Shown here: positions 26,455 through 29,500 of the stretch, in pieces
Numbering within the stretch: position 1 is the stretch's first letter
How the letters are laid out: every line of letters starts with the position of its first letter
Source of the DNA: Streptomyces nanshensis
GTDB taxonomy: Bacteria; Actinomycetota; Actinomycetes; Streptomycetales; Streptomycetaceae
NCBI RefSeq assembly: GCF_001751255.1
Contig: NZ_LJGW01000162.1
Location: forward strand, 4,279-37,308
Direction: 5' to 3'
DNA length: 33,030 bases
Notes under the pieces: model-generated
Database searches by the model: none
The model's input: only the letters and a program-made list of their open reading frames with translations
What the model was told of the DNA's origin: nothing
Program-made: the position numbers and the translations under genes

Positions 26455-26880
26455 GTGGATGCATGGATCTGGTGGCTGATCGCCGCCGTGGGGCTGGGAA
26501 TTCCGCTCGTCCTCACCGCGATGCCCGAGTTCGGGATGCTCGCCGTGGGCGGTGTCGCCGGTGCCGTGACGGCCGCGCTCGGCGGCGGCATGGTGGCCCA
26601 GGTCATCGTCTTCGCCGTCGTCTCTTCGGCGCTCATCGCCGTCGTACAGCCGATCGCCCGGCGCTCCCGGCAGCAGCACCCGAAGCTCAGCAGCGGCGTC
26701 GACGCACTGACGGGCCGCCAGGCCATGGTGCTGGAGCGGGTGGACGGGCAGGGCGGCCGGATAAAGCTCGCGGGCGAGGTCTGGTCGGCACGGGCGCTGG
26801 ACTCGCAGGCGGCGTACGAGCCGGGCTCCCAGGTGGATGTGGTGGAGATCGACGGCGCGACCGCGGTCGTGATGGGATGA
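26455..26880 (+). CDS. NfeD-like membrane protein (short, OB-fold)
   Basis: 141 aa from GTG 26455. Hydrophobic region of about three short helices (4-24 WIWWLIAAVGLGIPLVL, 27-45, 50-66), then a soluble C-terminal beta-barrel (OB) of about 65 residues starting near GVDALTGRQAMVLERV and ending VEIDGATAVV. This is the short NfeD1b form, without the ClpP-like protease half. NfeD proteins are paired with stomatin/flotillin-type SPFH proteins, and here the SPFH gene follows 106 bases later on the same strand. Likely role: membrane microdomain organisation or quality control together with that partner. Confidence 0.87.
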   Translation: MDAWIWWLIAAVGLGIPLVLTAMPEFGMLAVGGVAGAVTAALGGGMVAQVIVFAVVSSALIAVVQPIARRSRQQHPKLSSGVDALTGRQAMVLERVDGQGGRIKLAGEVWSARALDSQAAYEPGSQVDVVEIDGATAVVMG

Positions 26881-26936
26881 TCAGGCAGCGGCCGGGCCTA
26901 ACAACCGCGAGTACACGGCGACTTGCGGTGGGACGA

Positions 26937-26964
26937 TTGTCATCGGCCGACGACGTCATAGCAG
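26937..26964 (+). promoter_or_regulatory. Candidate promoter of the SPFH gene
   Basis: TTGTCA (26937-26942), 16-bp spacer, TAGCAG (26959-26964); start near 26971, just upstream of the GGGGGG ribosome site at about 26978-26983. Confidence 0.4.
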
Positions 26965-26986
26965 TGACACACAGGCAGGGGGGCGG

Positions 26987-27949
26987 ATGGACGCCATCAT
27001 CATTGTCCTGATCATCCTGGTGGTGCTGGTCTTCATCGCACTCATCAAGACGATCCAGGTCATTCCGCAGGCGAGCGCCGCCATCGTCGAGCGCTTCGGC
27101 CGCTACACCCGCACCCTCAACGCGGGTCTGAACATCGTGGTGCCGTTCATCGACACCGTCCGCAACCGGGTCGACCTCCGCGAACAGGTCGTCCCGTTCC
27201 CCCCGCAGCCCGTGATCACCCAGGACAACCTGGTGGTCAACATCGACACCGTCATCTATTACCAGGTGACGGACGCCCGCGCCGCCACGTACGAAGTCGC
27301 CAGCTACATCCAGGCGATCGAGCAGCTCACCGTGACCACGCTGCGGAACATCATCGGCGGCATGGACCTGGAGCGGACCCTCACCTCCCGCGAGGAGATC
27401 AACGCGGCGCTGCGCGGCGTGCTCGACGAGGCCACCGGAAAGTGGGGCATCCGCGTCAACCGCGTGGAGCTGAAGGCCATCGAGCCGCCGACGTCCATCC
27501 AGGACTCGATGGAGAAGCAGATGCGCGCCGACCGCGACAAGCGCGCGGCGATCCTCCAGGCGGAAGGTGTACGGCAGTCGCAGATCCTCACCGCGGAGGG
27601 CGAGAAGCAGTCCTCGATCCTCCGGGCGGAAGGTGAGGCACGCTCCGCCGCCCTCCGCGCCGAAGGTGAGGCGCAGGCCATCCGTACGGTCTTCGAGTCC
27701 ATCCACGCCGGCGACCCGGACCAGAAGCTGCTCTCGTACCAGTACCTCCAGATGCTGCCGAAGATCGCCGAGGGCGATGCCAACAAGCTCTGGATCGTGC
27801 CCAGCGAGATCGGCGACGCGCTCAAGGGTCTGGGCGGTGCCCTGGACGGCTTCAAGCCGGGCGGCGGCAACGGCGGTTCCGGCGGCGGGGGCGGAGGCGC
27901 GGCGGCCGGCATGGTCAAGCCCCCGCGCGAGAGCCCGAAGCTCGACTGA
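26987..27949 (+). CDS. SPFH (stomatin/prohibitin/flotillin) family protein
   Basis: 320 aa, QmcA/stomatin-like. Membrane helix 3-22 (AIIIVLIILVVLVFIALI); SPFH domain about 25-185 (PQASAAIVERFGRYTRTLNAGLNIVVPFIDTV..., IIGGMDLERTLTSREEIN). Residues 189-232 are four contiguous 11-residue repeats of the type ILxAEGxxxSx, a hendecad pattern that predicts a long right-handed coiled coil. Then a conserved block (LLSYQYLQMLPKIAEGDANKLWIVPSE) and a disordered Gly-rich tail. Family members form large ring or cage oligomers at the membrane and scaffold proteases or microdomains. Preceded by NfeD, its usual partner. Confidence 0.92.
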   Translation: MDAIIIVLIILVVLVFIALIKTIQVIPQASAAIVERFGRYTRTLNAGLNIVVPFIDTVRNRVDLREQVVPFPPQPVITQDNLVVNIDTVIYYQVTDARAATYEVASYIQAIEQLTVTTLRNIIGGMDLERTLTSREEINAALRGVLDEATGKWGIRVNRVELKAIEPPTSIQDSMEKQMRADRDKRAAILQAEGVRQSQILTAEGEKQSSILRAEGEARSAALRAEGEAQAIRTVFESIHAGDPDQKLLSYQYLQMLPKIAEGDANKLWIVPSEIGDALKGLGGALDGFKPGGGNGGSGGGGGGAAAGMVKPPRESPKLD

Positions 27950-28017
27950 CCCGACGACCCGACGACCCGTCGACCGGGCCCCGGACCCGAACCGGGACCC
28001 CGGATGACCACGTCATC

Positions 28018-28065
28018 AGCCCCTCCGGCATGATCGGTGCGTACGGCACTGATCTCGGAGGGGCT
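28018..28065 (+). promoter_or_regulatory. Long hairpin sequestering the TauE ribosome binding site
   Basis: Outer arms AGCCCCTCCG (28018-28027) and CGGAGGGGCT (28056-28065) pair perfectly over 10 bp. Inner arms GATCGGTGC (28032-28040) and GCACTGATC (28046-28054) add 9 bp (one G-U) around the loop GTACG. The 3' arm contains the GGAGGGG ribosome site of the GTG at 28070. It may also end the SPFH transcript. Confidence 0.65.
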
Positions 28066-28069
28066 TCGC

Positions 28070-28837
28070 GTGACGATCTGGGAGGCGATCGCGGTCTGCG
28101 CCGCGGGCCTCGGTGCGGGCGCCATCAACACCGTCGTCGGCTCGGGCACGCTGCTGACGTTCCCGGTGCTGCTCGCGGTCGGCCTGCCGCCCGTCACGGC
28201 GAACGTCTCCAACGCGCTCGGACTCGTCCCCGGATCGGTCAGCGGCGCCATCGGCTACCGGCGCGAACTGCGCGGCCAGCGGCGGCGGGTGCTGCTGCTG
28301 AGCGGCGTGGCCCTCGTCGGCGGACTGGCCGGAGCGGTGCTGCTGGTGGCCCTGCCCAGCAGCGCCTTCGACATGATCGTCCCGGTGCTCATCGGCATCG
28401 CGCTGGTCCTGGTGATCGTGCAGCCGTGGCTGGCCCGCGTCGCCGGGCGCCGCCGCGAGAAGCACGGCCGTGCGGCACGTCCCGACGGCGGCGTACCGCT
28501 CTCGGCCGGGCTGCTCGCCGCCAGCGCCTACGGGGGCTACTTCGGCGCCGCCCAGGGCATCATCTACCTCGCCCTCATGGGGCTGTTCCTCGACGAGACG
28601 CTGCAACGCATCAACGCGGTGAAGAACGTCCTCGGCGCCCTCGTCAACGCGACCGCCGCCGTCTTCTTCCTCTTCGTCGCCGACTTCGACTGGCTCGCGG
28701 TCGTACTCATCGCGGCCGGCAGCGCGGTCGGCGGCCAGTTCGGCGCCTTCGTGGGACGCAGACTGTCGCCCACCGCGCTGCGGGCCATCGTCGTCGCCGT
28801 CGGAGCGGCGGCGATCGTTCACCAACTGCTGCACTGA
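28070..28837 (+). CDS. TauE/SafE family (DUF81) membrane permease
   Basis: 255 aa from GTG 28070, five bases after the hairpin carrying its GGAGGGG. An earlier in-frame start at 28037 lies inside that hairpin and was rejected. About eight helices; the repeated family motif appears as AGAINTVVGSGTLLTFPVLLAVGLPPVTANVSNALGL in the first half and as the AYGGYFGAAQGIIYLALMG / INAVKNVLGALVN pair in the second. Family members export sulfoacetate, sulfite or other organosulfur anions; the real substrate here is unknown. Same direction as SPFH but 120 bases apart, convergent with the HNH gene. Confidence 0.88.
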   Translation: MTIWEAIAVCAAGLGAGAINTVVGSGTLLTFPVLLAVGLPPVTANVSNALGLVPGSVSGAIGYRRELRGQRRRVLLLSGVALVGGLAGAVLLVALPSSAFDMIVPVLIGIALVLVIVQPWLARVAGRRREKHGRAARPDGGVPLSAGLLAASAYGGYFGAAQGIIYLALMGLFLDETLQRINAVKNVLGALVNATAAVFFLFVADFDWLAVVLIAAGSAVGGQFGAFVGRRLSPTALRAIVVAVGAAAIVHQLLH

Positions 28838-28887
28838 GCACGCCTGTCGGCGTTCTCCCGCGCTGCCGGGTGCTCCCGTACGAGCCG

Positions 28888-28900
28888 GGGTGCGACACCC
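28888..28900. terminator. Weak hairpin between TauE and HNH genes
   Basis: GGGTG-CGA-CACCC, 5 bp, lies in a convergent 67-bp gap. A modest stem; the call rests mainly on position. Confidence 0.3.
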
Positions 28901-28904
28901 GCGG

Positions 28905-29450
28905 TCAGGCGCTCGCGGGCAGCGCGGGCGCGGAGACGGGGACGGGCCCGCCGGGCACCGCGAGCCACTCCGGCAGCCCCTCACCGTTCCGGAACCCCAG
29001 GGCGAGCAGCAGCGCGTCGGCCGGAGTCGGCGCGAACGGCTTGACCGACAGCGCCATTCCGGCCTGCGCGGGCGTCCGGTCCGCCTTGCGGTGGTTGTCC
29101 GCGGCACACGCCGCGACGGTGTTGAGCCAGGTGTCGCCGCCGCCCTGCGACCGCGGCACGATGTGGTCCACCGTGGTCGCCCGGCGCCCGCAGTACGCGC
29201 ACCGGTGCCGGTCCCGTACGAGGACTCCGCGCCGCGACCACGGCGCCCGTTGTCGGAACGGCACGCGGACGTATCTGCGGAGCCTGATCACCTGCGGTAC
29301 GGGGAGATCGACGTCGGCGGCCCGTACGCGGAGCCCCGGATGAGCGTGCTCGACGACGGCCTTGTCCTGCATGACCAGCACCACGGCCCGGCGGAGCGAG
29401 ACAGTCGACAGCGGTTCGAACCCGGCATTCAGGATCAGCGTCTCGCGCAT
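28905..29450 (-). CDS. HNH endonuclease family protein
   Basis: 181 aa from ATG 29450, with GGGAGG 8 bases upstream; the longer frame is low complexity. N-terminal conserved block RETLILNAGFEPLSTVSLRRAVVLVMQDKAVVE, then VIRLRRYVRVP. HNH domain: CAYCGRRATTVDHIVPRSQGG supplies one Cys pair and the catalytic D-H; NTVAACAADNHRKADRTP supplies N and the C..NH..K end, so the beta-beta-alpha metal motif looks intact. Close relatives are present as single copies across Streptomyces chromosomes, which argues for a housekeeping rather than a mobile or restriction role; the DNA substrate is unknown. Confidence 0.88.
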   Translation of the reverse strand: MRETLILNAGFEPLSTVSLRRAVVLVMQDKAVVEHAHPGLRVRAADVDLPVPQVIRLRRYVRVPFRQRAPWSRRGVLVRDRHRCAYCGRRATTVDHIVPRSQGGGDTWLNTVAACAADNHRKADRTPAQAGMALSVKPFAPTPADALLLALGFRNGEGLPEWLAVPGGPVPVSAPALPASA

Positions 29451-29500
29451 CCCCACCACCTCCCGTTTCGCTCCCGCCCCTGCGGCGGTGCGGTGGCTCC

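Follow-up and report, generated by a model that had tools for sequence, protein, structure and literature searches.

The Shine-Dalgarno (SD) sequence of a TauE/SafE (DUF81) permease gene (tauE) of Streptomyces nanshensis is buried in the 3' arm of a long hairpin, and comparison with relatives shows that this hairpin is a real, conserved SD-masking leader and not an accident of the local sequence. With moderate confidence, we propose that the element is a read-through silencer that has tauE's own promoter built into it and that serves to insulate the gene. RNA arriving from the upstream gene, here an SPFH/Band 7 gene, would carry both arms of the hairpin, and its anti-SD arm would pair with the SD and block translation of tauE; a promoter with its -10 box in the 5' arm would instead start RNA near position 28041, in the loop, and this RNA, devoid of the 5' arm, would have a freer SD, so that TauE would be made only from its own promoter.

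The hairpin and its place in the window

The DNA analysed, hereafter the window, is a stretch of 33,030 nt in which an NfeD-like, the SPFH/Band 7 and the TauE/SafE gene all point one way, the SPFH gene being the presumed source of read-through RNA into tauE. Its stop lies 78 nt ahead of a conserved GCATGAT motif, and alignments of relatives begin at residue 1 of the tauE start, the GTG at 28070. The relevant features, all on the forward strand, are as follows.

26987..27949 (+): SPFH/Band 7 gene, co-directional with tauE and upstream of it (Pfam PF01145, E = 1e-42)
28004..28009 (+): ATGACC, possible -35 (spacer 19), whose sequence fits the published motif NTGACC
28018..28027 (+): 5' base arm (anti-SD) AGCCCCTCCG, a perfect repeat with 28056-28065
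28028..28034 (+): GCATGAT, the conserved motif
28029..28034 (+): CATGAT, proposed -10 box of tauE
28032..28040 (+): 5' inner arm GATCGGTGC, overlapping the GCATGAT motif (sequence, fold, covariation)
28041..28045 (+): loop GTACG, with the predicted +1 at 28041, the seventh base past CATGAT, placed by the usual -10 spacing
28046..28054 (+): 3' inner arm GCACTGATC (sequence, fold, covariation)
28056..28065 (+): 3' base arm CGGAGGGGCT, with the SD GGAGGGG at 28057-28063 (sequence, fold, accessibility prediction)
28070..28837 (+): TauE/SafE (DUF81) permease gene, GTG start, 255 aa (Pfam PF01925, E = 7.6e-39)

A preliminary description of this DNA had reported nested repeats of 10 and 9 bp that bury the SD of tauE, and both the coordinates and the pairing were confirmed by the sequence and the MFE fold. 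The base arms form a perfect inverted repeat of 10 bp, the inner arms pair at nine positions (one of them G·U) around the loop, and the MFE structure comprises 20 stacked pairs, namely the 19 repeat pairs and an extra G·U, interrupted on the 5' side by a bulge of 3 nt. The stem at 28018-28065 has an energy of about -37 kcal/mol, and the SD in its 3' arm stands six bases ahead of the GTG. The surrounding 91 nt (28000-28090) folded at -51.7 kcal/mol compared to -34.25 kcal/mol (sd 3.44) for 200 dinucleotide shuffles, none of which was as low (z = -5.07). The fold of 28015-28069 (-37.3 kcal/mol) was equalled or beaten by 31 of the 13,190 overlapping 55-nt windows on both strands, which places it in the top 0.25% of the window's 55-nt folds without making it unique in such GC-rich DNA; conservation is the stronger evidence for the element.

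Two regulatory roles suggested in the preliminary description were not supported. An RNA thermometer was rejected since the stem is far more stable than the marginal structure expected of one, both in the window and in the single-sequence folds of leaders of the window's type, class A, which ranged from -27.5 to -40.2 kcal/mol (L006 and L032 apart). A ligand-responsive switch is likewise disfavoured for class A, whose loop is short and variable in sequence.

Distribution, architectures and genomic context

To survey relatives, genome contigs were scanned for TauE, and the best 80 of 513 confirmed matches were taken. In this protein-selected set, the motif GCA[TA]GAT together with a hairpin preceded the tauE start in 75 of 80 relatives; leader L045 carried the variant GGATGAT, and the motif was absent from L059, L064, L073 and L077, loci of the best 80 that also had no SPFH gene. 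Further leaders were collected from TauE matches in 150 Streptomyces genomes (100 leaders) and from 39 of 40 stretches picked from covariance model hits (L294, which has no tauE, was dropped), giving 220 leaders with the window. A pattern of six motif variants occurred in 186 of the 220, a figure that is not a prevalence, as the sets beyond the best 80 were partly chosen for the element. Of these leaders 174 were distinct, or 172 without two chance matches, with GCATGAT in 162, ACATGAT in 6 and other variants in 4; because the later sets were picked using the motif, its invariance inside them is partly by construction, and the fair figure is that of the best 80.

The leaders fall into two architectures. 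Class A consists of a single hairpin and accounts for 34 of the best 80 relatives (L032 being an odd case), while class B accounts for 41 and encloses an inner hairpin between the same outer arms, which typically read GCATGATCRGTG and CACYGA. This inner hairpin has the form GCCCCTCGACC-n-GGCGGGGAGGC, contains two bulged A's and is near-invariant in both genera in which it occurs; among 79 aligned leaders, all 10 of its pairs are preserved in 72 or more, and 8 of them in 77 or more. In class B leaders such as L051:2922-3003, the inner hairpin also hides an SD-like GGGGAGG. A TauE tree built by a quick method, with L032 labelled class A by hand, required at least three changes of class, two of them forced by starred branches. 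As the inner hairpin is present in both genera, class B is probably the older form, from which class A would have arisen through loss of the inner hairpin; masking and CATGAT would then be the retained core.

Covariance models of the two classes were searched against genomes. R1 (class B) matched 50 and R2 (class A) 12 of the 150 Streptomyces genomes, together 60, and by-eye comparison placed each positive genome's best model match next to a TauE match; TauE itself was found in 108 of the 150 at 1e-40, paralogues counted. R1 also matched 123 of a set of 392 genomes and, in a set of 121 genomes of the family, 19 genomes in 2 of 17 genera, the second genus being represented by 12 genomes. Each of the 50 positive Streptomyces genomes had a single R1 match, located at tauE, and a repeated element was therefore rejected. 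A second R1 match was seen in one of the 123 positive genomes, where it was weak (2.0e-4) and had no tauE adjoining (L294).

The element also stays with tauE where the upstream gene is of another kind. It was found behind genes for PPK2 (L050, L052, L066, L216, L223), ketopantoate reductase (L161, L200) and a prenyltransferase (L282) and behind a FUSC-type gene (L224), one protein of each kind having been named by Pfam. Divergent neighbours comprised a YheO-like regulator in L045, a sigma factor in L176 and L280, which form one lineage, and a transposase insertion in L281. In these four divergent loci, the anti-SD match was at chance (median -5.6 vs -6.1), which fits an insulating role; the four loci amount to two old contexts plus one recent transposase insertion. 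In the last of them (L281:613-1668), an IS481-like transposase gene (Pfam) lies in the opposite direction between SPFH and the element, which has been retained. As evidence to the contrary, SPFH upstream of tauE does not always bring the element along: it is absent from L237, and in L238 and L241 tauE follows the SPFH stop by 6 and 24 nt with no hairpin, so that the two genes resemble a simple operon. Further repeats were noted in a few leaders: L205 carries the hairpin's 3' arm three times in tandem, as 15-bp units in the last 100 nt or so ahead of the tauE start, and L219 and L221 have a second GC-rich inverted repeat (of the AGGGCCCG/CGGGCCCT type) between the SPFH stop and GCATGAT.

Pairing in RNA and predicted masking of the SD

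Covariation among orthologous leaders, the check put forward in the preliminary description, exceeded shuffled controls in two model-fitted alignments and was weak in a third. The sources of the fitted alignments (79 for A7, 29 for A8) were picked by hand, and the fitting to the models biases their counts towards the structure: in class B (79 leaders), 85.4% of cells were paired compared to 82.4 (sd 0.3) when shuffled and 40-64 when slid, with both sides changed in 11 of 26 pairs, and in class A (28 distinct leaders), 92.4% were paired compared to 88.4 (sd 0.5) when shuffled, with both sides changed in 8 of 18 pairs, both alignments surpassing all 500 shuffles and all slid controls. The unfitted alignment A9 of 15 long palindromes was weak to marginal, its covariation score being reached by 13 and its paired percentage by 3 of 500 shuffles. 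RNAalifold on plain MAFFT alignments found both sides changed in only 0 of 10 and 1 of 18 pairs, which we attribute to 3' arms lying out of register. Direct reading revealed compensatory pairs, GCCCTTCG/CGAAGGGC in L211 and TCTCG/CGAGA in L206. In addition, the leaders' own 5' arms matched their SD regions better than swapped arms in both class A (34 leaders; -16.4 vs -13.8, sd 0.39) and class B (41 leaders; -8.3 vs -7.4, sd 0.28), a difference reached in 0 of 2000 permutations in either case.

The kinds of mismatch tolerated by the helices bear on whether the element acts as RNA or as DNA. G·U pairs outnumbered A·C pairs 17 to 3 in the class A base helix and 75 to 6 in the class B inner hairpin, a bias that sense RNA should show. 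No such preference was present in the class A inner helix (7 G·U vs 13 A·C), the class B base helix (38 vs 39), the class B outer helix overall (35 vs 50) or A9 (10 vs 12). The R-Y pair directly after CATGATC in class B retained G·U (19, vs 3 A·C, plus 1 C·A), which indicates that the base ahead of the predicted start is constrained as RNA. The motif itself behaves differently: the A of the 5' CATG is constant in class B while its partner is T in 50, C in 14 and G in 9 leaders, drifting to A·C and A·G, and class A retains GCA[TA]GAT even where the 3' partner has been lost. Since the motif is fixed while its partner drifts, pairing does not explain the constraint on CATGAT, which seems to be held by something besides.

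Masking of the SD in read-through RNA is well supported as a prediction. The preliminary description had stated that the hairpin would block the SD in RNA reading through from SPFH and that a start inside it would free the SD, and both statements agree with the computed accessibilities: in the window, the predicted unpaired probability of the SD rises from 0.00 in read-through RNA to 0.62 in RNA starting in the loop. For the wider comparison, L232, L240, L006, L032, L205 and five leaders lacking an SD-like heptamer were removed from the 174 distinct leaders, leaving 164. In class A (n = 50), the predicted mean rose from 0.12 in read-through RNA to 0.39 from the predicted +1; in class B (n = 98), the corresponding values were 0.25 and 0.44. 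The classes were here split by pattern, so that at least two class B-like leaders (L278, L176) fall in A. A predicted gain was seen in 124 of 148 co-directional Streptomyces leaders, and control starts of SPFH genes (n = 17) averaged 0.38 vs 0.39, with a gain in 11 of 17. In the window, the 12 nt ahead of GCATGAT matched the SD region at -21.7, whereas 40 random upstream 12-mers averaged -8.8. The nine class B leaders of the second genus had no predicted masking (0.44 in read-through RNA vs 0.43 from +1) although SPFH lies upstream, and their base match was near chance (median -7.7 vs -6.6), with 5 of 9 beating at least 88% of random segments.

A proposed promoter within the hairpin and alternative readings

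CATGAT is best read as the -10 box of a promoter belonging to tauE, both promoter and start site being putative, and the presence of this conserved -10-like sequence in the 5' arm makes a start inside the hairpin the leading model. Published Streptomyces motifs include -10 TANNNT with -35 NTGACC (PMC4895711), -35 BTGACN (PMC8780764) and -35 TGAC (PMC6742748). CATGAT agrees with TANNNT at the second and last positions and differs at the first. AT content peaks at the motif (0.57) compared to 0.20-0.35 in the preceding 90 nt, with a second rise to 0.43 in the 3' arm. Where SPFH lies no more than 25 nt away, TGAC stands at a spacer of 15-19 in 82 of 105 leaders and is often formed by the SPFH stop codon plus C; the count falls to 7 of 55 when SPFH is more distant and to 0 of 14, a group that includes two chance matches, when SPFH is absent. 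No general conserved -35 was found across the 174 distinct leaders. Genome-wide, TTGAC-N17-19-CATGAT had 236 matches, at least 27 of them supplied by one conserved site, and so exceeded the 131 of the reversed control, but this raw number is close to the 215 (control 195) obtained at the wrong spacing of 23-25. Elsewhere in the genomes, a near-identical 28-mer, TTGACTCGGG[TC]GCCCGAGGAAACATGAT, with an inner palindrome forms a conserved promoter-like site in at least 27 of 101 Streptomyces genomes. In two groups that have a different gene upstream, conservation begins no more than about 10 nt from the motif, and the L176/L280 group has, further upstream, a conserved block in which another promoter could lie.

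Two other ideas were discarded. A leader peptide from the conserved ATG in GCATGATC, which opens a frame, would not keep its frame or length, as the motif lies at varying distances from the tauE start (42-48, 67-69, 78-79 and others), and helical phasing of half-sites does not fit the spacings.

It is also conceivable, though we think it rather unlikely, that transcription of tauE begins ahead of the entire element and that the hairpin is opened or closed by a ligand, a protein or a small RNA, with the class B inner hairpin as sensor. The near-invariance of that hairpin, its excess of G·U and the G·U retained just past CATGATC would suit such a regulated leader, and ykkC subtype 2d riboswitch candidates, likewise cis RNA, precede TauE/SafE genes elsewhere (PMC7266159). 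TAnnnT, a possible upstream -10, sits 9-10 nt ahead of the motif in nine leaders; overall, however, 11 of 172 leaders have it in the upstream 100 nt compared to 24.4 expected from mononucleotide shuffles, making it rarer than chance, which also speaks for CATGAT as the -10 box. Class A, moreover, has no inner hairpin for sensing, and the single R1 match per positive Streptomyces genome gives no sign of a regulon. No Rfam family, ykkC included, matched the window or L051, which also counts against a regulated leader. The earlier statement that no regulator of this kind was known for DUF81 transporters needs qualifying in view of the ykkC 2d candidates. A combined reading, which we offer tentatively and consider doubtful, is a new cis-RNA family in Streptomycetaceae. 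The inner hairpin of class B would then sit at or close to the 5' terminus of tauE mRNA and serve as a sensor or protein site, and class A would be a reduced version left with just the read-through lock and its built-in promoter. A start 7 nt past CATGAT would place the 5' end of class B RNA at the base of the inner hairpin.

The hairpin had also been taken for the SPFH terminator, and that part of the preliminary description fared less well: there is no T-run after the stem, and terminator-like sites numbered zero in 26500-29500. What is left is a terminator of the U-less type or a 3' end stabiliser of the upstream gene, with the SD overlap a matter of compactness. Such a role accords with a stable, GC-rich stem that follows SPFH in most loci examined and with the U-lacking 3' ends reported for S. 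lividans (PMC6742748), but the element travels with tauE rather than SPFH, including to places behind other genes and beside divergent ones, and a terminator would need neither an SD in its arm nor a fixed GCATGAT; we regard this as improbable. A DNA dyad, with the inner repeat serving as an operator that covers the tauE promoter and RNA pairing of secondary importance, appears equally improbable. It would span the predicted start and account for the lack of G·U preference in the class A inner helix, yet the class A base helix acts as sense RNA, and the class B half-sites are some 30-42 bp apart (hand count) with an inner hairpin of varying length between them.

The proposed read-through silencer has known counterparts. 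In the fold-back inhibition of IS10 and IS50 transposase, RNA entering from outside hides the SD and RNA from the inside promoter does not; those are mobile elements whose arm comes from the terminal repeat, whereas the present hairpin goes with tauE. Phage T4 gene e (lysozyme) and I-TevI follow this design: a hairpin masks the SD in RNA reading in from upstream, and a late promoter within the sequence encoding the 5' strand yields RNA that lacks this strand and is translated (PMC3014915). The tauE leader resembles gene e in that its SD is predicted to lie, in long RNA, within the 3' strand of a stable hairpin and in the predicted freer SD of hairpin-started RNA in most co-directional Streptomyces leaders; it differs in serving a bacterial chromosomal permease gene, with a putative promoter, two conserved architectures and no phage late sigma factor. 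A limited literature search found no earlier report of this leader.

The analysis yields a covariance model for a leader missing from Rfam and, on the proposed model, a search rule, namely a -10 box fixed inside an SD-masking arm. If that model is true, the device of phage T4 also serves an ordinary chromosomal gene, keeping transcripts of its neighbour from making its protein. Locks of this kind may then be widespread in compact, GC-rich genomes where read-through is common, in which case RNA-seq coverage of a gene need not mean that it is translated.
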